Source: Acorus gramineus (lineage: Eukaryota > Streptophyta > Magnoliopsida > Acorales > Acoraceae). Taken from it: a DNA stretch of 64,000 bases. Of the stretch, positions 1,739 to 55,182 are shown piece after piece (position 1 is the stretch's first letter; each line of letters opens with the position of its first letter). A program made the position numbers and the translations under genes. The stretch spans positions 14,513,438 to 14,577,437 of the forward strand of contig CM060855.1 in assembly GCA_030737835.1 (NCBI GenBank), written 5' to 3'. The notes beneath the pieces are model-generated. The model was not told where the DNA came from, did no database searches, and worked only from the letters and a program-made list of their open reading frames with translations.

Positions 1739-3229
1739 AATAAAATGTATCATAATTGTGATTAATCATACAAAATAATAAATATGACCAATATATAACA
1801 TAAACATATATATTTTTATAATATATGTCGGGTGTGGATATTTTTCAGATCGAATAGACTGATATCCAAATCTGTATATCGAATATTTTTTATTTTTTTT
1901 AATATTGATTCAGATCATGTTTTTATTTTTTTAAATAATTGACGGACTTACTTTCATATTGCTTCTTAATTTATTTTTTTTCCTTGTTACGCTAAACCAC
2001 ATTATTGGAAGGCACAGCATATATCCTGAGTGCACAAAGACAAAAAGGACAGACTGTATGTTTGTATGTCATAAAAATTTAAGCCAAATACAATTTTTTA
2101 GTCATAAATTTAAAATTTGTATTGCTATGAAATATACACATACGGTAAAGATCACCGGTTCTAATGAATCAGATGATGCCATGTGTCTATCGATCAATGG
2201 ATAAGATAACATTGACTGCATTCGAACATTTGGGATAACTAGGTGGGAATATCATCCTCAATAAAACCAGGTGCCGATCATAACTCCTCGACTTTATTCC
2301 CTCCGAACCTTATGAGCACATAAGGGTCCAATGACAATTTAAAAAGGATAGGCCAGCAAGACAAGCAATAATGATCTCTGATTTCAACATCTAGGGGCAG
2401 AATAAAAAATTAGAGCAAGGGGGGTTAAAAGGTTAAAAGAACCAATAAGATAAATTATTATTTTTTTATAGATATATAATAAGTTAAGATGAAATTAAAT
2501 TAGTTGGATAATGATTGAGTCTTTAAAGTATGACGATCTATTCACATTGAAAGTTATTTTTTTACTTACTTTGTATTTAGTAATCTAGAATAATTTATAG
2601 AAAATCGAGAAAAAAAATGTTGAAATTTTATTATTCTCATCACAAAAAATAGAAAAAACAAAGCTTCAAATTTAAAAAAAAATGAATATGGAGAAACTAA
2701 TTGATAAAAAAAATACAAGAATATCCTTTTAAATCTATATTTAAAAAAAAAAACCCAACTTTCAAATTTTATGAGAAGACTTAATATAATAATGATGAAA
2801 AATCTAAATAAACAAAAAAAAAATCACTAAAACATCCAACCCCTAAATATCAGATACCAATATTCCCGTGAAAAACAAAAAGTTTCACATTTTTTAAAAA
2901 TCACCTACGACTCCAATTCTCAATGAGCACGGATACACTCAGCCTGTTTTATAACCTTATTTTCATTTACCACGTCTAAGTCTGTATATAGAATTGACTA
3001 ACATAATATATGTTCCACTACCTCCGCATACACTGTTAAGAAATAGTAAATAAAATATATGCATTTATTATATGTGAGTATGTGGGTCATTTCTATAAAA
3101 GATTAATATCTTTTTTTATGTTAGTATACACTTAAAAAAATATTATATGTATACATGCTAACTGGGATACAAATGAGACTACATTGACATTTTACAAATT
3201 CAAACTCACTCATTTTTATGATTTTTTTT
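1739..3229. other. AT-rich intergenic DNA, no gene seen
   Basis: Long A/T runs and short unrelated reading frames only. The 81-codon frame at 1959-2204 has no recognisable domain and no coding-like composition. Confidence 0.6.
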
Positions 3230-3978
3230 GGGTTTTTTGCATGTATACCATTCAAAAGTATGCTATTTAATTTTATACCACTCCAAATAACCTATTTATT
3301 TTTATACCATTGAAATATATATAACTTATGCATATTTACCATCCTAGTTAATTTTCATCCAAATTTTTATTAAAACCGTTAAAGTCTTGGAGAAATGTCT
3401 AAATTACCCTTCTTCTTCTTCTTTTTTGCATATTTTACCTTACCAAATACAATATTTATAAAAATAAAAAATATTCATTTTAACATGAAAATGATAAATT
3501 TAATCTAAAACCCAAAAAACATAAAAATTAATCATACAAACTATTTATTAGCGAAGACATAATAATTGTTAATACTTACATTGGTAAAAATAAAATAAAA
3601 TTATTTTAACAACAATTAATCATATATAATACAGAATGATAATTTAAAAAAAAAAATTAGATCTTGATTGAAAAAAAAAAGGAAAGAAAGGGTAAGGTTG
3701 AATGACTCACAATTGATTTGGAAAGAACAAAAAATTAATTAAGTTATTATGTTTAATTATTTACATTGTCACATATTATATGTTAAGGCTATTTTTGTCA
3801 TTTTTACCTTTTAGTTTATAAATTAACTATAGTTAAGGTTCATTTTGGTTAAAAATTATAAAAGAGGGGCACGTTTTTAAATTAACAAAAATTCTAATGG
3901 TATAAAAATAAATACGTTATTTGTGGTGGTATAAAAATAAATTTCATATTTTTTTATGGTATATATGCAAAAAAACCC
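3230..3978. mobile_element. Non-autonomous TIR element, 749 bp
   Basis: About 90 bp at each end are inverted copies, beginning GGGTTTTTTGCATGTATACC. They share repeated words such as TTTTTATACCA and AATAACSTATTTATTT. The flanks are T-runs (8 T left, 7 T right), so the duplication cannot be read with confidence. Fragments with the same end words occur at about 17210-17290 and 18340-18430. No coding capacity. Confidence 0.7.
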
Positions 3979-4229
3979 TTTTTTTAAATAAGATTTCATG
4001 TTGTCAAAATAACCTTGGTGAATTACTGTTTGAAACAATACACCTCAAAAAGGTTTAAAATGTTCATGAATGTTGTTCTGAAGGGTGTTCATGTAAAACT
4101 TCAAAAAATATATCATGCAAAAATACCCCCATAAAAGGGCAATGGTTGTTGATGGAATAGAATTTTAAAGGGGATATTTGATAAATATAATACTAGTTAG
4201 GGGTTTACATGCAAAAAACTTTCATTTGA

Positions 4230-4500
4230 GGAAGCACTCCACCCTTATTCAACCTGACAAGGATCAATCAAGAAGGTAATCATCCAGAGCGAAGGCTATG
4301 GAGGCAACATATTTTGTCGATTGGGGGATCATTTGATTACCCAAAACATTTGCCCCCACAACTTGGTGCCGTCCGTGGGAACGTAGACAAAAAAAAAAAA
4401 AACCATGTTCAATATGGCCAACATCCACAAAAATAACACTTTGGCGAACGCCGCCCTCCCAACAACCACTTCTGTTGCAGCCAAGGCTGAAACATTACAG
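4230..4500 (+). mobile_element. LTR-retrotransposon remnant with primer-binding site
   Basis: TTGGTGCCGTCCGTGGGA at 4363-4380 matches the typical junction and primer-binding region seen after the 5' LTR of plant Ty3/gypsy elements (TTGGYGCCGTCYGTGGGA). The upstream sequence reads like an LTR end. No gag frame follows, so this is a decayed fragment. Confidence 0.6.
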
Positions 4501-7107
4501 TTAATTGGGTTTTATCGATTTTGAGGGTAAACCAAAGAAGAATTCAACATGCACATGTTTGTTTGTTTTTATAATATGCTGTTATTTACACACATGTTTC
4601 TGTTTGCAGTTGTTTGTTTCACCTATGTGAAACTCTTTGATTTTATAAATTTAAAAAATATTATTTTTCAGGTACATGCATTAATATCAAATTATGAATA
4701 TAAAAAATATAATAACAATAAATAGATTAAAATTATTAATAAATTTTATTTAAAAAACATATAAGTCCCGAGTACCACACAATTTTTTTTCGCGTGTACC
4801 ACATTTTTTTGTCTGCCGACTTCCGTTTGGGGACTGGGATTGACTAATTAATGGTTTGATTCAAAAGTCGATAAATGGCATTTAATATTTTAGTTGAGCG
4901 ATTAGACTGGACCGCTAATGATCAATTCCAAATCCTATTGTTATTGTCTAGGTTCCTGAATGTAATCCACTACATGAACCTGATGTTAAGCATGACCAAT
5001 CAGAATACCTGCATTTGCCTTGTAGGTTTGAGACTCACATTTAGATACCATGATTTTCAAACAAATCCATGTAGATTTTAGATCCCTGTGCCCACTGTTT
5101 TTGCCCATGTATACTAGTGCTAGGAAGTTTGATAACACTCCATGTGACAGTGTCGTCCTTGTCCAGTCATTTGTAATTAAAAAAAAAAAAAAAGTTCACT
5201 AAAACGTAAATGGGGTGTGATATCAAAAAATTATTATGAAGTTTTTGCAAAAATTCATTCTTTAACAAATATCACATAGTTTAAGAGACAACTCATCCAA
5301 ACAACCAATAACCGACTCTCAAATGTATGCTGTTTTACCAATTGTTTGACTTATTTTTAAATTTAGTTTTTTTTTTTTAAAAAAAATAGATATTACTATT
5401 ACGATTTCATTTTTTATTTTGAAATACAATTTTCAAAGTTTTTATTTATTGTTGGCTTTTAAAAATCATCAAACCACAACTCAGATCCGTGGAACCCAAC
5501 CAGTGTGGTCGGGATTTTTAATTTTGAGTGCGAGTCAATTTCAAGTCATAATGATGTTTGATTAAAAGTGTTCTTAGATGATACATTGCATTTCATATCT
5601 TATGGTTAGAAAAATAAGCCTATAACCGTTTAAGGCATTGCTCATAAATGAAACAATGCTATCAAAGATGTAAACATAGCATAGCATGCAGATTTATTGT
5701 ATCGGGACAATCATCTTTTTTGTACCAATTAAAAGAGCGACATGTTGTCCCGCCCGTTTTTGGCATGTTGGACAGGGACAGGGACATCGCCCGTCCAAGG
5801 ACTGACGCAGCTTCGATTCCTTTGACCGCAGAAAAAATGGTGGAAAAGCCCTATGGGCTTATTATATGGGCCTTCGCCAAGCTGATACAAATCCATATCG
5901 AATTTCAGATCCATAGTCTCGGGTCCATATTGTTTTATTGGGGTGAGATCCGAGGAGAATGAGAAAGAGAGAGCGAGCATGTTCATTGATGGATCCATCC
6001 CTTCCCCTTCTTTTCCTAAGTTACCATACATTTTTTTTATGTATTAATATAATTTATTTTGAACAATCCAATAACCTAAAATTTAATCATCAAAATAATT
6101 GATCCAAATCAATATCTAAAGAGTCTTGCTACCCAAATCCCAATTCATAGGCCCCACTCACAAACCCCAATAGGTATCAACTTATCTTTGGATGCATGAT
6201 TGACTTTGACAAAAAGACAAAATCGATTTAATTTCCCACTCACAAACCCCAATAGGTTTGTTTTCGTCTTCCGTCCCTCTCACTGTCATTTAATTTCAAA
6301 ATCGATTGGTTTCCAAAATATTAACGCAACAATTGATACATTTCATCATTCTCTTTTTTTTCTTTTTTTTTTGTCTAAAAAATTGAAGAACATCAAGCAT
6401 TTTTGGGGATTTGATTTCAACCCGATTTATGAGAGTTTCTTCGTTCGATTGAATGTCCAATTGCAAATGATGGGTAAGAGATTTGTTTTCCCAATTTTTC
6501 GAATCAGACATGTTGTATTGCCGATTTATTCAAGTTTCTTCATCAGATTGAATGCCCAATTGCAAAAAATGGGTAAGAGATTAATCGGGGCGTAGAAGGG
6601 ATTAGAATATTGTTATTAGGGTAACACCGGGGTTTTATGTACAAAAATCTGGATCGAGTAGGTTCAACTGGTAGAGATGTGTTGTTATTGTTTGATATAG
6701 TGACAGTAATAGTTTAAATTTTTTTTAAAAAAAAAATGTGATGGGATCAATTTATCCCACCACATATAATGTGGGGCTGCCCCTGCGAGGAGCACATCAA
6801 GAGTAGTCGCTACGCTACTACGCGTCTTTATTTTTCTATTTTTCTTATTTTTAAGTACCCAAATTAGTGAATTTACTATTTTTAGTAATATTTAGATTTA
6901 TGATATTTGTATCATAACAAAATAAAATTGATCTTTATCAGTGAGTATCTAGGATCCCATAGTTATAACCAATTTTGGATTTTACTAATAATTTTTAATT
7001 TTCTCTTATTAGTATAAAAGGTAGACTTGTAATCCACGGCAGATTCAGTTTTTCATTAATAAAATTTAGAGATACTTTTTTTTCTGAGATTTAAAGTTAT
7101 GGTTTAA
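4501..7107. other. Intergenic DNA, no gene supported
   Basis: The frames at 4875-5081, 5648-5962/5729-6031 and 6200-6595 were inspected. None has a family motif, and several read through poly-T or simple sequence. Two similar 30-bp words near 6440-6580 suggest a small local duplication. Confidence 0.55.
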
Positions 7108-46304: not shown

Positions 46305-47105
46305 TCAACCCCTCTTTGCTAACCCAAATGTGAGGGCATCGCTGATCTGACGGAAGGAGTCGAGGATCATTCGCGTCTTCTCCGTCTCCATAGCCATTCG
46401 ATCCTTCTCCGCCTCCCTCATCATCTCCAACCGCTCCCTCTCCACCCTCACAAACCCCTCCCCAAAACTCCGGACAACCGAAGCCAGCCGCCCCATCGGA
46501 GTCGCCGAACCACCACCGTCCAATCTCCTCCTCTTCTGAACCATCGAATTGACCAGCACGCCAGGCCTCGAAGTCCGATCCCCGCTCGCTGCAGTCCTCA
46601 ATATATAATCGACTGAACGAGTGTTACTGACATCTTCGTCTTCATCATCATCATCGTCGCTGTCGGGGTCATCAGGGCCGTCGATCATGGGATGGGCAGC
46701 CGAGATGGGGAGGGGACCACGGGCGAGGAGGTCCATGCGGTCGAAGTAGGGCCAGGGGGAGGGGACGGTCAGCTGCTTCTCGGTGCGGTAGCGCTTGCGG
46801 AGTTTCTCGAGCTTGTGGCGGCACTGAGTGCCGGTCCTGGTCGGAGCGGCGCCGCCTCGGCGGGCGGAGACGGAGGCGGCGATCTCGTCCCACTGGCTTG
46901 ACTTTAGAGGACCGCGGTTGACGGAGAACCACTTCTCCTGGTACGCGTCGATCAGGTGGACCGTCTCCGCGTCGGACCACGGTGAGGGCGATGGCCTCTT
47001 CTCTGACGGCGGAGGCGGCCGCGGCTGCTGCTGTTGCTGCTCCGATTGTGATGGGACGGTTACGGCTACCGGTTCTAGGGATGCGGGCTCCGGTGCCATT
47101 GTCAC
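46305..47105 (-). CDS. Trihelix transcription factor, ASIL/ENAP (SIP1-clade) type
   Basis: A single-exon gene of 266 residues. Nuclear DNA-binding protein; relatives bind GT-type elements, and ENAP/ASIL members act mostly as repressors or chromatin cofactors. An N-terminal P/Q-rich region contains a Q5 run (23-27). The trihelix domain is at about 41-110: PWSDAETVHLIDAYQEKWF, SSQWDEIAASVSAR and TGTQCRHKLEKLRKRYRTEK, with conserved W43 and W72. PWPYFDRMDLL (117-127) follows, as in the subfamily. An acidic run of D/E (139-148), a basic KRRR patch (191-194, likely nuclear localisation) and a C-terminal helix rich in R, E, K and M (210-260, coiled coil) complete the layout. The ATG at 47105 is the first in frame; a second Met follows at residue 3. 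GC content is well above the surroundings, as for the other host genes. Appears intact. Confidence 0.95.
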   Translation of the reverse strand: MTMAPEPASLEPVAVTVPSQSEQQQQQPRPPPPSEKRPSPSPWSDAETVHLIDAYQEKWFSVNRGPLKSSQWDEIAASVSARRGGAAPTRTGTQCRHKLEKLRKRYRTEKQLTVPSPWPYFDRMDLLARGPLPISAAHPMIDGPDDPDSDDDDDEDEDVSNTRSVDYILRTAASGDRTSRPGVLVNSMVQKRRRLDGGGSATPMGRLASVVRSFGEGFVRVERERLEMMREAEKDRMAMETEKTRMILDSFRQISDALTFGLAKRG

Positions 47106-47309
47106 ATTAGGAGTCTTTTGGAGCTAGATTTGGGTCTTGGAGATCTCGTCAAAGTTTTCACCATCGGTAGGTGCTCCGAGTCATGAAAGTGGGAGAAGCT
47201 CGTGAAACGCGTTTCGTCGTTGAATAGAATTTGGAAATCATTTCTGATCTGATGTTAATTTATATCTGTCTATATTAAGCTTTCAATTATCTAAAAAAAA
47301 AAAAAAAAA

Positions 47310-47365
47310 GGAGAAATTAATTAGGGGTCCTGACCCTATCTTCATAATAACAATAAGTCCCTGTT
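47310..47365 (+). repeat. Left terminal inverted repeat of MULE 2
   Basis: Matches the complement of 54466-54522 with a few substitutions and a 1-bp gap; similarity fades after AATAACAATAARTCCCTG. Confidence 0.85.
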
Positions 47366-47529
47366 TTAAATTTTCTTTAGGTCCCTCAGTTAGTGGTTGT
47401 ATTTTGTTTAGGTCCTTCCATCTTTTTTCTATCCAATCTATTGTTTTTATTCCTCTTTTACCCTCAACTCAACCTAACGTGCTTTCTCCTTCTCCGCCAA
47501 CATCTCTCTTTCTCTCCCAAAACTCAACA

Positions 47530-47760
47530 TAAGGTGAGAATGTGATACCACCTCCACCAGCCCCCTCTACCGTGCCTCCTGCGCCCCACATTGCGTCCCC
47601 CAACCGCCTCCCACCCCATCCCGCGACCCCGTCCGCGCCTCCCACCCCCTCCGACGACCCCATCCGCGATCCCCACCCCCTCCGACGACCCCATCCGCCA
47701 CCCCCATCCCCTCCCGCGACCCCGACCTCCCCCCACACCCAATCTTGACCACGGATGTTG
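47530..47760. repeat. GC-rich, C-biased low-complexity block
   Basis: Repeats of about 30 bp built on CCTCCGACGACCCCATCCGC occur at least twice, producing overlapping P-rich and G-rich frames on both strands. Probably the 5' non-coding region of the transposase gene, not a protein gene. Confidence 0.7.
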
Positions 47761-48359
47761 CCCCGGACCCGGATCGATTGGTTCTCATTCCTTCATCACC
47801 AATGTATGTTTTTATTAAATGTTCAAAGCAATATTTTATTCTTTTTTATAGTTTTCAATGTTATAGTGTTGATTTTATGCATCTTAGATGTTTGTATAAA
47901 TGTTCATAAACTGGAGAGTTTTTAGAAATATGAAAGTGTAAGGGTGTACACAGTGCGCTTATCAGTGTACACATACAGTACATGACATAGTGTGCGATGA
48001 TTTTCAGTTTTATGTAGTCATGCATGTTCTGAAATTATGAAATTTTTAAAGTTTCACTCTTCATATAATTGTATATATTTTTGAACTAAGAGATTCTCAA
48101 AGTGTGAATATTAATAGTGTGCACAGTGAACCTAACAATGTACATTGAGTACATTGTGTGTTTTCTATGCTTATTAGGCAATGTGTATGCATGTTACAAT
48201 ATGATGAAAACAAAAAATATGTTCTTTTTATAACAAGAGATTATTGTCAGTTTATGTGTGAAAAATGGTTGAATGTAATTGCATGTTATAATAAGTTACT
48301 AACATGAAATTCATGTTAATTGCCTTTTAATTTGCAGATTAATTTATCATTGTTGAAGA

Positions 48360-50142
48360 ATGGAACCAATCATGGCTGCTTGTACATATATGGGAGATGC
48401 CGAGGTAGTTAGTATATGTAGAACAACAACGTATGCTTACATTGTCAATGAATTAGTGGAAAGATGGGGGTTCGATGCGGCCAAAGTTATTATGAAGTAT
48501 GAAATTCCAGGGAAAACAATGATTAAACCCACTATTGGGAACGATAAGGCCGTAGAGAAGATGTACGACATCCATAAGATGTGTGGGGCTATGGTAGTCG
48601 AAATCTATGTTACCCTCAATGATGGACAAACTTGTGACGGAGATGAAGGAATAAGGTAAAAATATGTTATACTCTTTCATAGTCATTTCGTAAGAATTTT
48701 ATTAGTGTACACAGATTACTAATAGTGTACATAGACAGTGATAAAATTTTGTATATATTATTATACCTAATGCATCCCATAATTGAAATGAATTGCAGGA
48801 TGTCCAACACAGTCCAAATGAACATGACAAATACTGCACCTACATCTTGTAGTATGGTCACCCAAGGGGAAGCCATTTGCGGGAGTACGTCAAGTGGGAT
48901 GCTCACAAGTTTTTGGGATAACTGCATTCATTCAATCAATCAACAGTTTGAAGATGTCGAAGAATTTCGAATTCAGCTGACCAATTATGCCATAGCACAT
49001 TCATTTGATTTTGAGTACGTGAAGAATGACAGAGTAAGGGTGACAGTTAAGTGTAAGATTCCTTCATGTGGATGGCGTGTACATTGCTCTAGAGTGGGGT
49101 TGGGTCCTTACTTTCAAATCAAGACGATGAACAACGTTCACTCATGTGGTGGAGGAATATCAACAAACGGTCATCCTAGAGCATCACGAAGATGGGTGGG
49201 TGAGATTACAAGAAAGAAGTTTATAGATTCTCCGTTATATCGACCTCGCGATATAGTGAAGGACGTATTTAGAGATTATGGCATCAATTTACCTTACCAC
49301 AAGGCATGGCATGGAAAAGAGATAGCTTGTAAGGATTTGCATGGAGATGAAGCACTTTCATTTGATCATCTCCGATGGTATGCTACAGCGGTAATGAATA
49401 CGAATCCTGGAAGCTACGTGGAGTTGGAATGCACTCCTGAAGATCATAGATTTCGAAGAGTATTTGTAAGTTTTGGTGCTGTAATTGCTGGCTTTGAGAC
49501 TGGGTGTAGGCCCATGTTGTTTTTAGATGGAACATTTTTAAAATCTAAGTACCAAGGTATTTTGCTTGCGATCATTGCTAAGAATGGGAATGACGGTTTT
49601 TTTCCATTAGCATTTTCAGTTGTGGATCAAGAGACAGAAGATAATTGGGCATGGACATTAACATGCTTACGAGGGATCATATCTTCAGATCGAAGAATCA
49701 CATTCATTTCTGATAGGGGTAAGGGTTTAATGTCAGCTGTCCCTTCAGTCTTTCCAGACTCATATCATTCTCATTGTTTACGACATTTGAAGATGAATTT
49801 TAAAGAGACGATCACTGGGAAATTCAATATTTCTGTTAGAAGGAAATTGCTTCAACTACTAGATGCTGCAGCTTATGGATTGAGAATTGAAGATTACAGA
49901 AAAGTCATAGCCGAATGCGGTGTTTTTCTCAACAAGCTGCAAAGTGGGTTGAAGATTCTGATCCAGACCATTGGGCAAATGCCCTATTTCCAGGGGAAAG
50001 ATATGGAGAATTGTACTCTAACTGTGCTGAGTCTTTCATCGTCTTTGGCAGACAAGAACCTCTTCCCTTGATAATTTCTTCGTTTCTCTGTGAGGACCTG
50101 CAAATTATAATACATGAAAAATGGCTATATTATTTCACTTAA
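48360..50142 (+). pseudogene. MULE (Mutator-like) transposase, frameshifted
   Basis: Exon 1 (48360-48655, 98 codons plus 2 nt) encodes the N-terminal PB1-like domain found in plant MULE transposases (ending near EIYVTLNDGQ). A 143-bp GT-AG intron joins it in phase to exon 2 at 48799. Exon 2 has the MuDR-type zinc-binding region (RVRVTVKCKIPSCGWRVHCS, then H and C). The catalytic core follows: LFLDGTFLKSKYQG (first Asp) and FISDRGKGL (second Asp), with CLRHL downstream. Near 49915 the frame shifts: the expected block WVEDSDPDHWANALFPGERYG and SNCAESF continue in another frame (49915-50142). The family's C-terminal SWIM zinc finger is absent. Hence a broken, shortened transposase that ends 65 bp before the oppositely oriented PMD gene ends. 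Confidence 0.92.
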
Positions 50143-50207
50143 TTTCTGTATTTTTAAGCAAAGATTGTATTTTGCTTACCTTTCTCTTTGGGATTTTAAA
50201 TAGTACA

Positions 50208-52660
50208 TTAGTCATTTTTTTTCCTCTTTGGTGATGGGGGGGTCAACAACAACACCTCAGTTTCTTGCACTACATTATCCATTGCCTTGAGCAACTCCTT
50301 CTTCACAGCTCCATGGTAGTATGGAGACCGCAGTAAATAAGATGACATCCTGTTTCTCCTCTTCAATCTCTCAACATAGGAGGCTTTTTTTGGAACCCCC
50401 TGAATGATCCCTTCATCAGGATTCTGACTGAAAGGAATGACAGAAAACACTTGTGGCACCAATTCTAATGACCCTTCGTTGGGATCCTGACTGAATGGAA
50501 CAATGGATAAGTCCATCTCTTGGGAGCTAACATCCACAATGCTATAGGGTTCTTTGTCAAACCCATCCTCACTAGCTCCACCTATGACATCATGCCCACC
50601 TGACTCATCTACACCATCAAATTCGCATCTCTTAATTATGTAGTATTCATCATTTTCAGAGGCCTCCTCCTCCCCTTCTTTCAAGTTTTGTTCTTCTTCT
50701 CCCCCCTCTTCTCCCTCCCCTAGTTTTTTCAGTAGTTCCTCGTCCTCCTTCTTCTGAAGCTCTTTAGATAGCTGGGCATTTTGAGCCGTCAACAACTCCA
50801 CCTTTGACTTAAGCACCTCCATCTCTCCCTTCATCTTTTTTAGTTTCTTCCTTAGTCTATTTCCTCCGTAATGACGAAGTGACCCCAATTTCCTCTTCAA
50901 TGAGATAGAGGGAACCGCACTAGCCAATCTCCTACATCTTTTTAGCTCTTGTGGTTGTTGTTCATCCTCCTCCTTCCAATAATTCAAGGGAGTGTTCCTC
51001 CCCTTCATTTTATCCATCCTTCCCCCATAGAGGAGCCATCTCTCTCCATCATCAACCTTGAGGGCTGTCATAACCTACAACACAAAAGGAAATCTATGTC
51101 AGTATTATACAGAGTAGATCAGGTCATATATAGTAGTGTACACATTTGAATTAGTAATGTACAAATGTGCTCAATCAGTGTGCACAGAAGATAATAATGT
51201 ACATCTTTAGTGTACAGATGTCTTCAAGCAGTGCACACAGATGACTTAATAGTGTACATATTTGAAATAATAGTGTACACATTTTAAATAACAGTGTACT
51301 ATTTCAGATAATTTGAATAAGTTTACATATGTATGCATAACAGTTCATATATATACTTCAGTGATTATGAGTTATTTACCTCAGCCGCGGTTACCCTGAA
51401 GGGGTCAGCATTTTTCTCCCCCCTTCTCCTCTTCAGTTTCATCGCCCACTTGAATAATCGTGGGGAGACATAGTGAGCTGTAGGCATCCATCTAGTTGTT
51501 CTTGTGTGCTCGTAGAACCAAGCCTATAAAAATTATTTCATTAATTCTTGTGACAAATTAATAATTAAAAAAACATATAAATTTTTTCAAGTGATGTGAT
51601 ACTTACACAGAGGACCGCGGTGCAACCAAAAACGTATCCCATTGATGATTTGGAATATTGGCCCTCGTCCCTCATTGTTATGCAGGCCCGTTGTTTCCGT
51701 ACGCCCTCCATCAGTTGATCGCGGATGGCAACGGACCATGCATACTTCCATGTGGATTTCAGATTATCCAACAATCCTAAAAGAGGTATTGGGCAATTGT
51801 AGTGTCCAATCGGAAACAGAAACGACGCAAATATGAAAGCTATCCAAAGTCTCACAAAATCTTGGATGTCTTTAGGGTCGTCGGAGTTCATCAAGTAAGA
51901 CATACTTTCCTTCAAGGCTGCCCTGGTGATGATGGAAGTATCACTGAAGAACCGCTTCTTGATTTTGGACTTTGTAGATGATGAGTTCAAGTTAGGGGTC
52001 TCCCCAAAGGCTGGCAGCCCTATGATCAGGGCAACATCTTCGGCAGTCAAAGATATCGGCTGCCCACCTATCTCGAAGAAATCTCCATCAGATTTGTAGC
52101 TGCTAACGATGACATCAAGTAACTCTGACTGGAACTGTATCCTCGGAATATTAACCAAAATATTGAATGGTGTCTTCTTCATCAATCTTCTGTGGCATTC
52201 TCTGACTTCCATCCCATCCATGGCAGTTATGTAATAGATTGGGAAGCACCTATGCTGCACCAGCATCGATTTGGGTAGAAAGGGTTTCACCGTCCCTATT
52301 ATAAGATAGTACCAAAGAGTTAATAGTGTACAAAAGTATGTTAAGAGTGTACAAAGCCACTTCAATGGTGTGCAGAGGTCATTTTAACAGTGTACACATG
52401 TGTTTTAATCTTGTACAGTGCATGTAATAAGAGTTTACCTTGTTCCTTTTTATTCCTCATGGTGGATGGCTTCGATTTGGACTTCGTATTAGTGGATGAC
52501 TTGGGTTTGGACTTTTCCCGAGTCTTCGTGGGATTTCGAGGATCTCTTGATGTTATGCCCGAGTCTTCCTAGTAGAGGTAAAAGGATCATCCTCTTTAGA
52601 GACTAGTGCTTTTTGGTTTCGAGGACTTCGTCGTGGTGTGATTTTCTGCGGACGAGCCAT
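50208..52660 (-). pseudogene. PMD/DUF1985-like element-borne gene, four exons, frameshift in exon 1
   Basis: Exons are 52660-52439, 52295-51607, 51523-51380 and 51074-50208, with GT-AG borders; junctions 2-3 and 3-4 are phase 0, and 1-2 would be phase 1. Exon 1 starts MARPQKITPRRSPRNQ and is very basic, but its length requires a 1-nt shift near 52560 to connect, so it is damaged or my start is wrong. Exon 2 has ECHRRLMKKTPFNILVNIP and EIGGQPISLTAEDVALIIGL, the 'LT.EDVALI.GLP..G' signature of plant-mobile-domain/DUF1985 proteins. Exons 2-3 join as FGCTAVLC-AWFYEHT...RW. Exon 4 has a K/L coiled coil (about 75-115 of the exon), an acidic E-rich run, two copies of a PFSQxPxEG word and a basic end SPKRKKND. 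No enzyme motif is seen. Function unknown; such genes are known passengers or accessory genes of plant transposons. Confidence 0.8.
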
Positions 52661-52765
52661 TATGTTTCAACCTAACAACATGAAAAAAAATGTTAGAAAA
52701 AGTGGTGAACAGTCCCTCATACTACATAATTAGAATAATGATTTATCAGTGTACATATAGAGCAT

Positions 52766-53145
52766 AACAGTGTATCAAAGAAGCATAATAATGTACAGGA
52801 AGAGAATAACGGTGTACAAAAAAAAGGAATTTGGGAAATAACAAATTTGGAAAAGAAATACAAAACATAAGCCAAATATTTAGAAATATAACAGAGATCT
52901 TTGATAATAAATGTTTAAAGAATTAGCATGGAGTCACTAACTGTTTTTCTTTTTGATAACAGTGTATCAAAGAAGCATTAACAATGTACAGGAAGAGAAT
53001 AACGGTGTACAAAAAAAAAGAATGAATTTGGAAAAAAAAAATTTGGAAAAGAAATGCAAAACATAAGCCAAATATTTGAAAATATAACAGAGATCGTTGA
53101 TGATAAATGTTTAAAGAATTAGCATTGAGTCACTAACTCGTTTTC
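52766..53145. repeat. 202-bp tandem duplication in MULE 2
   Basis: AACAGTGTATCAAAGAAGCA begins copies at 52766 and 52968. Both run through AACATAAGCCAAATATTT to GAGTCACTAACT with small indels. Contains three AGTGTACA-like words per copy. Confidence 0.9.
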
Positions 53146-54400
53146 TTTTATATCAAAAAATAGAATAATGAATTCATCTAACAATGTCTTCATTCGGACT
53201 TGAGTCATTAACTATTGAGGGGGCATATATGTAGGCTTTTGTTTTAAAATCATGGTTTTCTTACATATATTGTTATGGTTATATTTAAATATGTAAGGGA
53301 AGGCTTTTAAAAAAATGGTTTTGAGTTTCAGCCGCAGATGCTACAAGAGAACGTGGGTAAGGCTTCTTATCAACCAGCATTTGGGTTCTTCAGATGAACA
53401 TCTGTTCTTTGTTCTTGAGCAAAAGAAATATAGAAAATGATTAACATCAACAAACACTTTGCATATAAAATGTGTTACATGGTCATCTTTATATCAGAAG
53501 CAATGCAATATAAACGAACGAAAACATAAAAAATGATATGAACATGAACTCGAAAGCTAAAATCAAGGTGAACAACCGAGAGACCATAGTCACAAATTTG
53601 GGGAGGGATATGGATCATGTTCGGTTCGAATCGGATTATTCGGGGAGGGATACGGAAAAAAATTCAGAAAAATTTGGAAATCTAAAAATAGTGTATATTC
53701 ATAACATAAGAATGAAAATATACAAATATGCATCATAATCATAAAATCAAATTCAAGATGTCAAATTCAAGAATCATGTAAGTATAATAATTAAATTAGA
53801 AAACAAACAAATGTGATCAATTAACCATTTCACTTATTGATTCATCCATGAAGCACAAGCCTCTTCATCCACCTTCTTCACACACAAATAATCAAACAGT
53901 TGACATGCAAGATATGATTTTCACACACATTCAACACAAACCACTACCCTCACCAACACACACCAAAATCTCACATAAAGACTTTCTCAAACATCTCTAA
54001 TGCACTAACCAATCAATCTCCACGCACTAAATCATATCTCCAAATTGAAATTGAAATCTACAATAACCAAAAACAAATATCAATGACCCACTACAAGAAA
54101 GAGAGAGAGACAAACGGGGGGGTTCTTCGCCGCCGATTCGACCTCCCTGAACACCGTCCAACAAACGGGGTTTTTTGCCAGCCGATTCGACCTCCCCTTC
54201 TTTGCCGTCCGACACCTCCCTTCGAGATTCCGGTCCGATTCCGGTCCTTCGCAGGTAAAATAGGGGAGGAGAGTGGAGATGGGGGGAGGGGGTGGGACTA
54301 GGGTTTAAACAAGGGAGGAGAGTGGTCAAAATATTTTGGAGGGAGAGGGTTTTAAGTGGGAGGGGTATAAAGGGGATTTCCCATGACTGTTAGTAACTCT
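53146..54400. other. MULE 2 right interior, no gene
   Basis: AT-rich DNA, then a GC-richer block at 54100-54330 next to the right end, a likely promoter or 5' region by analogy with the other side. The frames there (54027-54329, 54083-54301) are opposite-strand shadows of biased sequence. Confidence 0.5.
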
Positions 54401-54465
54401 GTTAGTTTGAGGGACCCAAAGATAATAGATTTTGAGTTTAGGGACTTATCATTATTGTAAAATAA

Positions 54466-54522
54466 TCCAGGGATTTATTGTTATTATGGAGATAGGGTCA
54501 GGGACCCCTAATTAATTTTCCC
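54466..54522 (-). repeat. Right terminal inverted repeat of MULE 2
   Basis: Complement of the left end, including TTATTGTTATTATGGAGATA and GACCCCTAATTAATTTTCCC. Confidence 0.85.
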
Positions 54523-55182
54523 AAAAAAAAATGATGAATCTGATTGGTATTTATATTAAAAAAAAATCAGAAATATCCCCTCTTCGAATATTTTGAGTGC
54601 GGATATAAATACAAGTGTATCCGATCTAAAAAATATTTGTATTTGACATATATTATAAAAATATATATATGCTTATATTATATATTTTCATATTTATTAT
54701 CTTGTATTATTAATAACAATTATGATACATTATATTACTATTAGATTTTCAATGCATGATATTCAAAAGACATAATAAACCTTAAAATCTCAATTTCACG
54801 TCTCTCTAAAATATCACTTAATTATCAAAATTTATGTTAATATTTAATTTTAATTTTAATTTTCACATGTCCATATGAAAAATCCATACACGAAGAGACC
54901 CAAATTTGAAAGTATCAAATGATTCGGATATGATATGTTAATCATATCTTTTCCGTTAAGAGGTTTATCTATATCTATATCATTGTAGAATGGTGCCAGT
55001 TGCGGAAAAATTGACCCCTAAACTCTTTCAGTACTGATTTAACCAAAGCTCGATTAGCTTGAAAATAAATAAAAAATAAAAATAAAAAAGAGCGAACTCT
55101 AGCAAAAGGGTCATCAGGAGAGAGCGTATAAAAATGTTTATACCGTTTTCCTTGCTACAAAGACACTGACACTAGTCCCAAT

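Follow-up and report, generated by a model that had tools for sequence, protein, structure and literature searches.

A TIR-type MULE family of Acorus gramineus with a DUF1985-Ulp1-like second gene and a one-strand, 21-bp-phased word array, likely encoding its own anti-silencing factor

The window analysed here, a stretch of 64,000 nucleotides of the Acorus gramineus genome (contig CM060855.1, assembly GCA_030737835.1), contains at 47310-54522 a TIR-type MULE in which a mudrA-type transposase gene on the plus strand and a spliced second gene on the minus strand lie tail to tail. The ends of the element read GGAGAAATTAATTAGGGG.. and ..CCCCTAATTAATTTTCCC, and its genes and borders are placed as follows.

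47310..47360, plus strand: left TIR (about 51 bp), preceded by nine A at 47301-47309 that match the right flank; full copy C9b has a perfect 65-bp TIR
48360..48655, plus strand: transposase exon 1, an ORF with a GT border; same ORF in C9b and C2a
48799..50038, plus strand: transposase exon 2 with MuDR DBD and MULE DDE, with a frameshift close to the end and truncated by the deletion
50036..50038, no strand: deletion junction, about 2.8 kb of the full copies being absent, from the comparison with C9b 2651-5446
50208..51074, minus strand: second gene exon 4 (ORF, exon borders), with a coiled coil seen by eye, an acidic stretch and a basic end
51380..51523, minus strand: second gene exon 3, from its splice borders
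51607..52295, minus strand: second gene exon 2, DUF1985/PMD-like domain, from exon borders, Pfam, genome matches and selection
52439..52660, minus strand: second gene exon 1, basic N-terminus, out of frame relative to C9b
54472..54522, minus strand: right TIR, followed by nine A at 54523-54531

The TIRs match over 51 bp at 94% in the window copy and over 65 bp at 100% in C9b. Runs of nine A on both sides of the window copy fit a 9-bp duplication and are weak proof alone; among six full copies inspected by eye, four (C11, C7a, C9b and C32) carry exact 9-bp TSDs, C2a carries one of 8 bp and C3 has none. The transposase of the window copy matches PF10551 (E 6e-20) and PF03108 (E 2e-16), and a SWIM domain is found in that of full copy C2a. 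Compared with the full copies, the window copy is a deletion derivative that has lost the transposase C-terminus with its SWIM domain, together with the C48 and 3' exons of the second gene. A preliminary description of the locus had recognized an element with two genes, and its TIRs, transposase, GT..AG minus-strand exons and convergent layout all stand; however, the transposase carries a frameshift and is cut short, and the second gene is incomplete because the C48 exons are absent and exon 1 meets a stop where C9b reads through. The 65 bp given there as the distance from the second gene to the transposase 3' end is not a real gap, as it was produced by the deletion. The window copy is a decayed, non-autonomous member of a TIR-type MULE family. 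Absent from the preliminary description were the deletion, the C48 domain and the strand-biased target array.

Domain exon 2 of the second gene has at least 151 matching stretches in the genome, from 100% down to 25% identity, among the best 150 of 445 candidates scored (some loci give two stretches), which is not the pattern of a single host locus. Of ten close copies, chosen because the exon is present, nine have the transposase next to it, again convergent, and the tenth, C10, shows no transposase in the 11.7 kb examined. Purifying selection acts on the exon between clades (pS 0.75-0.79, pN 0.24-0.25); since dN/dS between close copies ranges from 0.18 to 0.92, constraint is clear only at that greater distance. 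These features bear on the idea that the second gene is a host gene fragment captured at random, in the manner of a Pack-MULE. MULEs often capture gene pieces, as stated in the passages of PMC2528002 relevant here, and 30 of the 40 best TIR matches have no listed exon match within 12 kb; against this, the number and divergence of the matches, the presence of both genes in nine of the ten exon-chosen copies and the selection between clades make such a capture extremely improbable. The sequence comparisons thereby support the view, already put forward in the preliminary description, that the second gene is a true element gene. The expectation that it should accompany other copies of the TIR holds in part: among the best 40 of 608 TIR candidates, 10 have a listed exon match (best 150 of 445) within 12 kb. 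MULE families usually include geneless or deleted copies; such copies, or ones whose exon is unlisted, may account for the TIR matches without a listed second-gene exon.

What the second gene encodes is seen best outside the window copy. The mobile-domain signature first noted there is present as a weak match, with 19.5 bits for PMD (PF10536; Pfam cut-off 34.9) and 17 bits for DUF1985 (cut-off 35.1), both below their thresholds. Instead of a DUF1985-Ulp1 factor, the product could be a plant mobile domain protein like MAIN/MAIL1 with a role in host silencing or in transposition: of the two weak matches in the window copy PMD scores higher, two clade D relatives reach 24.7 and 28.3 bits, and at E<=0.01 PMD is matched by six of the seven family members that were aligned. 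DUF1985 is matched by six of the seven equally, and none of the seven attains the PMD cut-off of 34.9 (best 28.3 bits, E 1.3e-6), whereas the clade C relative L059, at 32% identity and connected to the window exon at E 1e-29, exceeds that of DUF1985 (43.9 vs 35.1 bits). Furthermore, the fuller copies, which have the convergent layout too, combine the DUF1985-like domain and a coiled-coil/acidic region with a C-terminal Ulp1-type C48 peptidase, an architecture that fits the KIU genes. The MAIN/MAIL1 reading is for these reasons quite unlikely, and the PMD label is not the best fit.

The C48 domain is well defined in C9b, where the joined exons match PF02902 (E 2.5e-23) and SENP1 (9e-12) and retain the His, Gln and Cys positions that we take to be catalytic. 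Its His and Cys exons occur in nine of the ten close copies, and L059 carries C48-like exons scoring 20.1 bits against a cut-off of 20.7. The usual Ulp1 catalytic Asp is Asn in 10 of 10 loci matched by a search pattern that allowed either residue (YNSM in nine, YNSL in L059), and peptidase activity is therefore uncertain. As for exon 4, the acidic and coiled-coil character proposed at first is visible by eye, in a segment that we presume to be a coiled coil from its general features, and no Pfam family is found above cut-off in the window copy. A predicted structure of the DUF1985-like exon, computed for the window copy alone, was set aside (pLDDT 38, pTM 0.29).

The non-coding DNA of the element is marked by a single short word, AGTGTAC, at the following places.

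47943..47970, plus strand: upstream of the transposase, AGTGTAC at 47964 and, 21 bp away, a one-mismatch form at 47943
48704..48730, plus strand: two AGTGTAC in the transposase intron (48704, 48724)
51135..51299, plus strand: AGTGTAC and one-mismatch words in 21-bp ladders, second-gene intron 3 (51135, 51156, 51177; 51209, 51230, 51251, 51272, 51293)
52325..52395, plus strand: three AGTGTAC in second-gene intron 1 (52325, 52346, 52389)
52748..53010, plus strand: ladders of AGTGTAC and its one-mismatch forms, second-gene upstream region (52748, 52769, 52790, 52811; 52961, 52983, 53004)

The exact word occurs 12 times on one strand of the window copy and 0 times on the other, with 12 of 12 outside exons; 500 shuffles gave a mean of 0.26 and a maximum of 3. 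It is the most strand-biased 7-mer of the full copies, six of which hold 142 against 3 by strand, with 0 of the 142 in tblastn-defined exons. Pairs of the word in seven copies, the window copy included, are spaced by 21 (46 pairs), 42 (24), 63 (14) and 84 bp (8), and genome-wide 888 pairs lie at 20-22 bp vs 1091 at 8-38 bp, an excess of about 40-fold per spacing. Three of three inspected array loci outside the earlier matches proved to be relatives or derivatives of the family, and a geneless 1.03-kb element (L063:880-1907) retains similar TIRs, a 9-bp TSD seen by eye and the array. When the first 100 listed AGTGTAC pairs were merged by hand into 54 clusters and compared with the best 40 of 608 TIR and the best 150 of 445 exon candidates, 9 of the 54 had a listed exon or TIR match no more than 12 kb away.

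Ac and Spm elements have subterminal repeats bound by their transposase, and the ladders could likewise be transposase binding sites to which the second gene is unrelated. The motif is indeed strand-biased and kept within the family, and the geneless L063 retains TIRs and array. The words, however, are spread through introns, intergenic and upstream DNA: in the window copy 655 bp separate the left end from the first exact one, and about 1.8 kb lie between the last one and the right end. The tandem arrays of a full copy are found in introns and in the space between the genes. Clade C of the second protein also has another word, the clades being defined by that protein and not by the transposase. 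This origin of the ladders is unlikely, and the AGTGTAC repeats are probably read by the second-gene protein.

The comparison of clades also bears on whether the arrays are neutral tandem repeats expanded by slippage, their 21-bp period a chance property of the first repeat. The motif does occur in tandem-repeat units of 21, 42, 94 and 156 bp, as slippage would have it. Nevertheless, in corresponding introns clades A and B have the same word on the same strand and in the same 21-bp phase, even though the four introns sampled otherwise align at or just above shuffled level and synonymous sites approach saturation in the comparison with the 60% clade. In 13 loci of relatives with 56-74% identity, the same strand holds 58 words and the opposite one 3; within this set the exact word occurs once in L028 and is missing from L029. 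A change of word to AATGTAC in these last two is only a candidate, because minus-strand C-to-T decay would give the same change. In the two clade C loci, L059 and L061, AGTGTAC is absent, and TTACA is phased at 20-22 bp in 5 and 10 pairs, respectively, against a shuffle maximum of 2; genome-wide, TTACA triples number 2403 in phase vs 227 at 25-27 bp, with the reversed control likewise raised in phase (824 vs 253). Thus the word differs between related clades along with the protein, AGTGTAC in A and B and TTACA in the two loci of C, and the phase is the same. In clade D (26% identity) both loci, L060 and L062, show no phased word and no 21-bp phasing. With a different word kept in the same phase in clade C and the complete avoidance of exons by the 142 words, slippage is a very unlikely explanation.

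We consider it likely that this MULE family itself codes for a sequence-specific anti-silencing factor of the VANC/KIU type; the factor would have a target code of its own, bind DNA and bring about demethylation. Intact copies would supply the second-gene protein, which may oligomerise via its coiled coil and bind, in introns and in intergenic and upstream DNA, the one-orientation AGTGTAC words, many of which follow one another at 21 bp, or two turns of the helix. The bound protein would remove or prevent silent chromatin, the Ulp1 domain perhaps stripping SUMO from silencing proteins. Transposase expression would thus be enabled, and copies could be mobilised in trans, including deletion derivatives and geneless miniature elements. 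The suggestion in the preliminary description that the protein might act against silencing points the right way. The DUF1985-Ulp1 architecture of fuller copies is the one described for Kaonashi and VANC (KIU) genes.

A broader reading, towards which we lean only slightly, is that one genome contains several private, phase-locked anti-silencing codes. Each DUF1985-Ulp1 clade would read its own word (AGTGTAC, TTACA, perhaps AATGTAC and CAGTGTR) every two helical turns on one strand, and geneless miniature elements with no more than TIRs and a ladder would survive as parasites of another element's anti-silencing protein; the 21-bp spacing, set by the oligomer, would be invariant while the word drifts. 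A helical periodicity is said to figure in the work of Sasaki on VANC evolution in eudicots, which appeared in EMBO J in 2022. The proportions of 9 in 54 clusters and 10 in 40 TIR matches near a listed partner slightly lower our confidence in both the broader reading and the anti-silencing factor itself. The signature of one word on one strand in 21-bp steps can be scanned for in any genome, and two clades with different words in the same phase would make the recognition code of DUF1985 approachable by comparison. Additionally, the geneless element with its array suggests how non-autonomous copies may remain mobile.

How transposons counter silencing in a sequence-specific way is understood from the VANDALs of Arabidopsis, and the same anatomy is now found in a TIR-type MULE family. 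Among the titles and abstract openings listed on VANC/VANDAL, DUF1985/PMD/ULP-MULE and AGTGTACA-transposon subjects, no earlier report of the array appears. Published VANC proteins carry DUF1985 and have short, one-orientation motifs at high density in non-coding regions, namely AGTTGTAC/AGTTGTCC for VANC6 and YAGTATTAY for VANC21, according to the relevant passages of Hosaka 2017 (PMC5735166). AGTGTAC equals the AC-type VANC6 motif AGTTGTAC minus one T. In the VANC6 and VANC21 systems, as far as that account goes, the words similarly lie in introns, upstream and intergenic DNA, in the same orientation, and the targets form one-orientation tandem repeats as in the AGTGTAC family; the 21-bp phase is not met in the sections of it that deal with these two proteins. 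The figure 5 legend of the same paper marks DUF1985 and DUF287 in VANC proteins, whereas here a DUF1985-like domain is joined to C48 (PMC5735166). Melon and grapevine MULEs with ULP1 differ further: in the portion of PMC2528002 that treats them, the ULP sequence follows the transposase, in either orientation and in elements with and without TIRs, and is regarded as transduplicated, with no target array described. The proteins of the MAIN/MAIL1 group (PF10536) show weak similarity in the same region, below the family cut-off, and here that region stands with C48 inside a MULE. Arabidopsis VANDALs and KI-MULEs are described as non-TIR, in contrast to the 51-65 bp TIRs of the AGTGTAC family, and the KIU VANDALs have a different word from the AGTGTAC of this family and the TTACA of its sister clade. 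Nonetheless, the KIU VANDALs (Kaonashi) likewise have a MULE second gene with Ulp1 and short non-coding target words, and the Ulp1 gene of KI-MULEs is reversed relative to mudrA, as here, in the parts of these accounts that concern them (PMC13317346, PMC5735166, PMC2528002).

The Mutator-like element at 47310-54522 is bounded by terminal inverted repeats (TIRs) of 51 bp with 94% identity, against 65 bp and 100% in C9b, a full copy from the same genome used as reference (locus L047), and a run of nine A lies at either side. Its plus-strand transposase is of the mudrA type (Pfam PF10551, E 6e-20; PF03108, E 2e-16). The spliced second gene of the preliminary description was borne out by its exon borders:

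Minus strand, window copy: second gene, four exons with GT..AG borders

The PMD/DUF1985 signature proposed for its domain exon (exon 2, 51607..52295) is present in Pfam matches that are weak and fall below both cut-offs (PMD 19.5 bits, cut-off 34.9; DUF1985 17 bits, cut-off 35.1). A trihelix-like ORF (by eye; window 46305-47123, minus strand) begins 187 bp from the element's left end, and the insertion may thus lie immediately upstream of a host gene. The full copy also carries a subterminal GC-rich minisatellite with a 31-bp unit on the transposase side (L047:1304-1438), and a similar CCCACCCCCTCCGACGACC repeat is found in the window near 47590-47720.

The copy in the window is damaged: about 2.8 kb of the full copies is absent from it. 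In blastn, the element aligns up to its position 2729, which falls at C9b 2650, and alignment resumes from position 2727 at C9b 5447. This deletion removed the 3' exons of the second gene together with the C-terminus of the transposase, where the SWIM finger lies. The 65-bp gap described between the two genes does exist, but in this comparison it is the deletion scar. The reading frame of the transposase is also disrupted towards its end, where a 376-residue match gives way to one in a different frame; in the second gene, exon 1 has a stop codon at a point where C9b stays open. Such a copy could be a target of the second protein, but hardly its source.

Ten close copies were fetched on the basis of carrying the domain exon. 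In nine of these exon-chosen copies the transposase and the second gene stand together in convergent orientation, the recurrence of both genes that the preliminary description proposed to look for; the transposase was not found in C10 within the 11.7 kb fetched, and is present in part only in C43. The two C48 exons sought, those with the His and the Cys, were found in nine of the ten, C6a being the copy in which they were not found. Six copies have both ends within the fetched stretch and are 9.7-10.7 kb long; their 9-bp target duplications, judged by eye, are exact in four, while one copy shows 8 bp and another none. The full second protein is predicted to comprise a basic N-terminus, a DUF1985-like domain, a coiled coil with an acidic stretch (by eye) and an Ulp1-type peptidase. 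Joined together, C9b's C48 exons give matches to PF02902 (E 2.5e-23) and to human SENP1 (PDB; 9e-12), with His, Gln and Cys kept. Asn replaces the usual catalytic Asp at all ten loci that matched a pattern allowing either residue, nine reading YNSM (e.g. L047) and one YNSL (L059, clade C), a change that makes Ulp1 activity uncertain. Exon 1 of C9b further contains a 177-bp tandem duplication (97% match; L047:8819-9171), single in the window copy, that doubles the basic peptide and is reminiscent of VANC proteins, in which peptides repeated in tandem have been reported (PMC5735166).

A protein search of the genome with the domain exon gave at least 151 matches, two at some loci, with scoring of the best 150 of 445 candidates. 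Of those listed, at least 12, counting the window, span 222 or more of the 229 residues with an identity of 90% or higher, and others fall into tiers near 74, 60, 32 and 26%; we regard the second gene as a gene family in this genome. Compared with five 60%-tier members, the window copy gives pS 0.75-0.79 and pN 0.24-0.25; dN/dS is 0.17 against the 74% member and 0.18-0.92 among close copies, as in decaying copies. At E<=0.01, DUF1985 and PMD are each matched by six of seven aligned members, none of which reaches the PMD cut-off; the clade C relative L059 (32% identity) scores 43.9 bits for DUF1985, above the cut-off. The proposed TIR search gave a divided answer: among the best 40 of 608 TIR candidates, 10 lie within 12 kb of one of the 150 domain-exon matches listed, but 30 have none listed. 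These 30 may be geneless, deleted or beside an unlisted exon, and a large part of the TIR family may lack the genes or be reduced by deletion. Elsewhere in the genome, two equal partial plastid rbcL matches lie 312 kb apart (G000:C10:4666240 and C10:4977956); they probably represent nuclear insertions of plastid DNA, which may have been duplicated.

The word AGTGTAC occurs in the window element 12 times on the plus strand and never on the minus strand, always outside exons; over 500 shuffles the mean count was 0.26 and the highest 3. No other 7-mer of the full copies has a stronger strand bias: six of these copies hold the word 142 times on one strand versus 3 on the other, all 142 outside tblastn-defined coding stretches. 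One-mismatch forms in the window element number 36 versus 13 by strand, with 5 of the 36 in exons, and 21-bp ladders appear, for example:

51209, 51230, 51251, 51272, 51293: 21-bp ladder in the window, one mismatch allowed
52748, 52769, 52790, 52811: 21-bp ladder in the window, one mismatch allowed

Pair spacings across seven copies are most frequent at 21, then 42, 63 and 84 bp, with smaller peaks (e.g. 135, 156), and Tandem Repeats Finder reported AGTGTAC-bearing units of 21, 42, 94 and 156 bp in one full copy. Throughout the 399-Mb assembly, 888 pairs lie 20-22 bp apart (reversed-word control, 113) and 1091 lie 8-38 bp apart (control, 791), that is, about 296 at each of three in-phase spacings versus about 7 at each of the other 28.

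Thirteen loci of 56-74% relatives hold 58 exact words in the element's plus orientation versus 3 opposite. Four sampled word-bearing introns scored 142-173 against the window intron, where shuffled maxima were 130-180 and a close copy scored 599; the persistence of the words in introns aligning at or just above the shuffled level points to maintenance of word, strand and phase. Two of the 13 loci, L028 and L029, form a sub-clade (about 80% identity to its sisters) that mostly carries AATGTAC (8 and 7, versus 1 and 0 AGTGTAC), partly in 21-bp ladders; whether by word change or C-to-T decay, this is a lead only, as is the CAGTGT variant with a freer last base in L022 and L031. AGTGTAC is absent from both clade C loci (L059, L061). 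With long open frames masked, 5-mers ranked by pairs at lag 20-22 and 60 shuffles over all words, the top clade C word was TTACA, with 5 pairs in L059 and 10 in L061 (shuffle maximum 2), against 2 and 5 over the remaining 28 lags between 8 and 38, and strand counts of 18 versus 7 and 24 versus 3. Over the whole genome, TTACA triples occur 2403 times at 20-22 bp, where the reversed control gives 824, and 227 times at 25-27 bp, where the control gives 253. The reversed word, ACATT, is thus itself enriched in phase; its triples may come from a second phased sequence or may belong to the same arrays. Neither clade D locus (L060, L062) had 20-22-bp phasing in the same scan. L060 (G000:C6:19285528-19291528) contains, on reverse strand 1-620, a repeat of about 128 bp with strand-biased TTACATA words that lack 21-bp phasing, perhaps an array of a different kind.

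Of 54 AGTGTAC clusters assembled from the first 100 pairs listed, only nine have an exon or TIR match, among those listed, no more than 12 kb away. Three array loci outside earlier matches were read: L064 and L065 retain parts of the second gene, the Cys exon of C48 in both, and L063 is geneless. The latter element (L063:880-1907; G000:C1:24571604-24574604) is 1.03 kb long, with similar TIRs, a 9-bp duplication TTTTATTTT (by eye), the array in its middle and no match to the five proteins searched. It is a miniature keeping only ends and array.

We propose that an intact copy makes the second protein, which would bind the phased words across the non-coding DNA of family members and lift silencing along the element, permitting transposase expression and movement; broken and geneless copies would also be mobilised. 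The 21-bp phase would put the words on one helix face, as expected for an oligomer, and the Ulp1 domain, if active despite the Asp-to-Asn change, may take SUMO off silencing proteins.

In Arabidopsis, VANC21 is described as sitting in non-coding regions of VANDAL21, and its motif YAGTATTAY as having high density and a single orientation; the domains DUF1985 and DUF287 are present in VANC proteins, VANC targets are often tandem repeats, and AGTTGTAC or AGTTGTCC is found in those of VANC6 (Hosaka et al. 2017, PMC5735166). Kaonashi (KIU) genes are reported to be VANC genes with an Ulp1 domain, and KIU-carrying Vandals to hypomethylate their own kind via motifs (2026 review, PMC13317346). Grapevine TIR- and non-TIR MULEs with ULP sequences have also been reported (Benjak et al. 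2008, PMC2528002). By its sequence features the Acorus family fits the VANC/KIU-type kind; it differs from the Arabidopsis VANDALs in having TIRs, and it also differs in its word, AGTGTAC.
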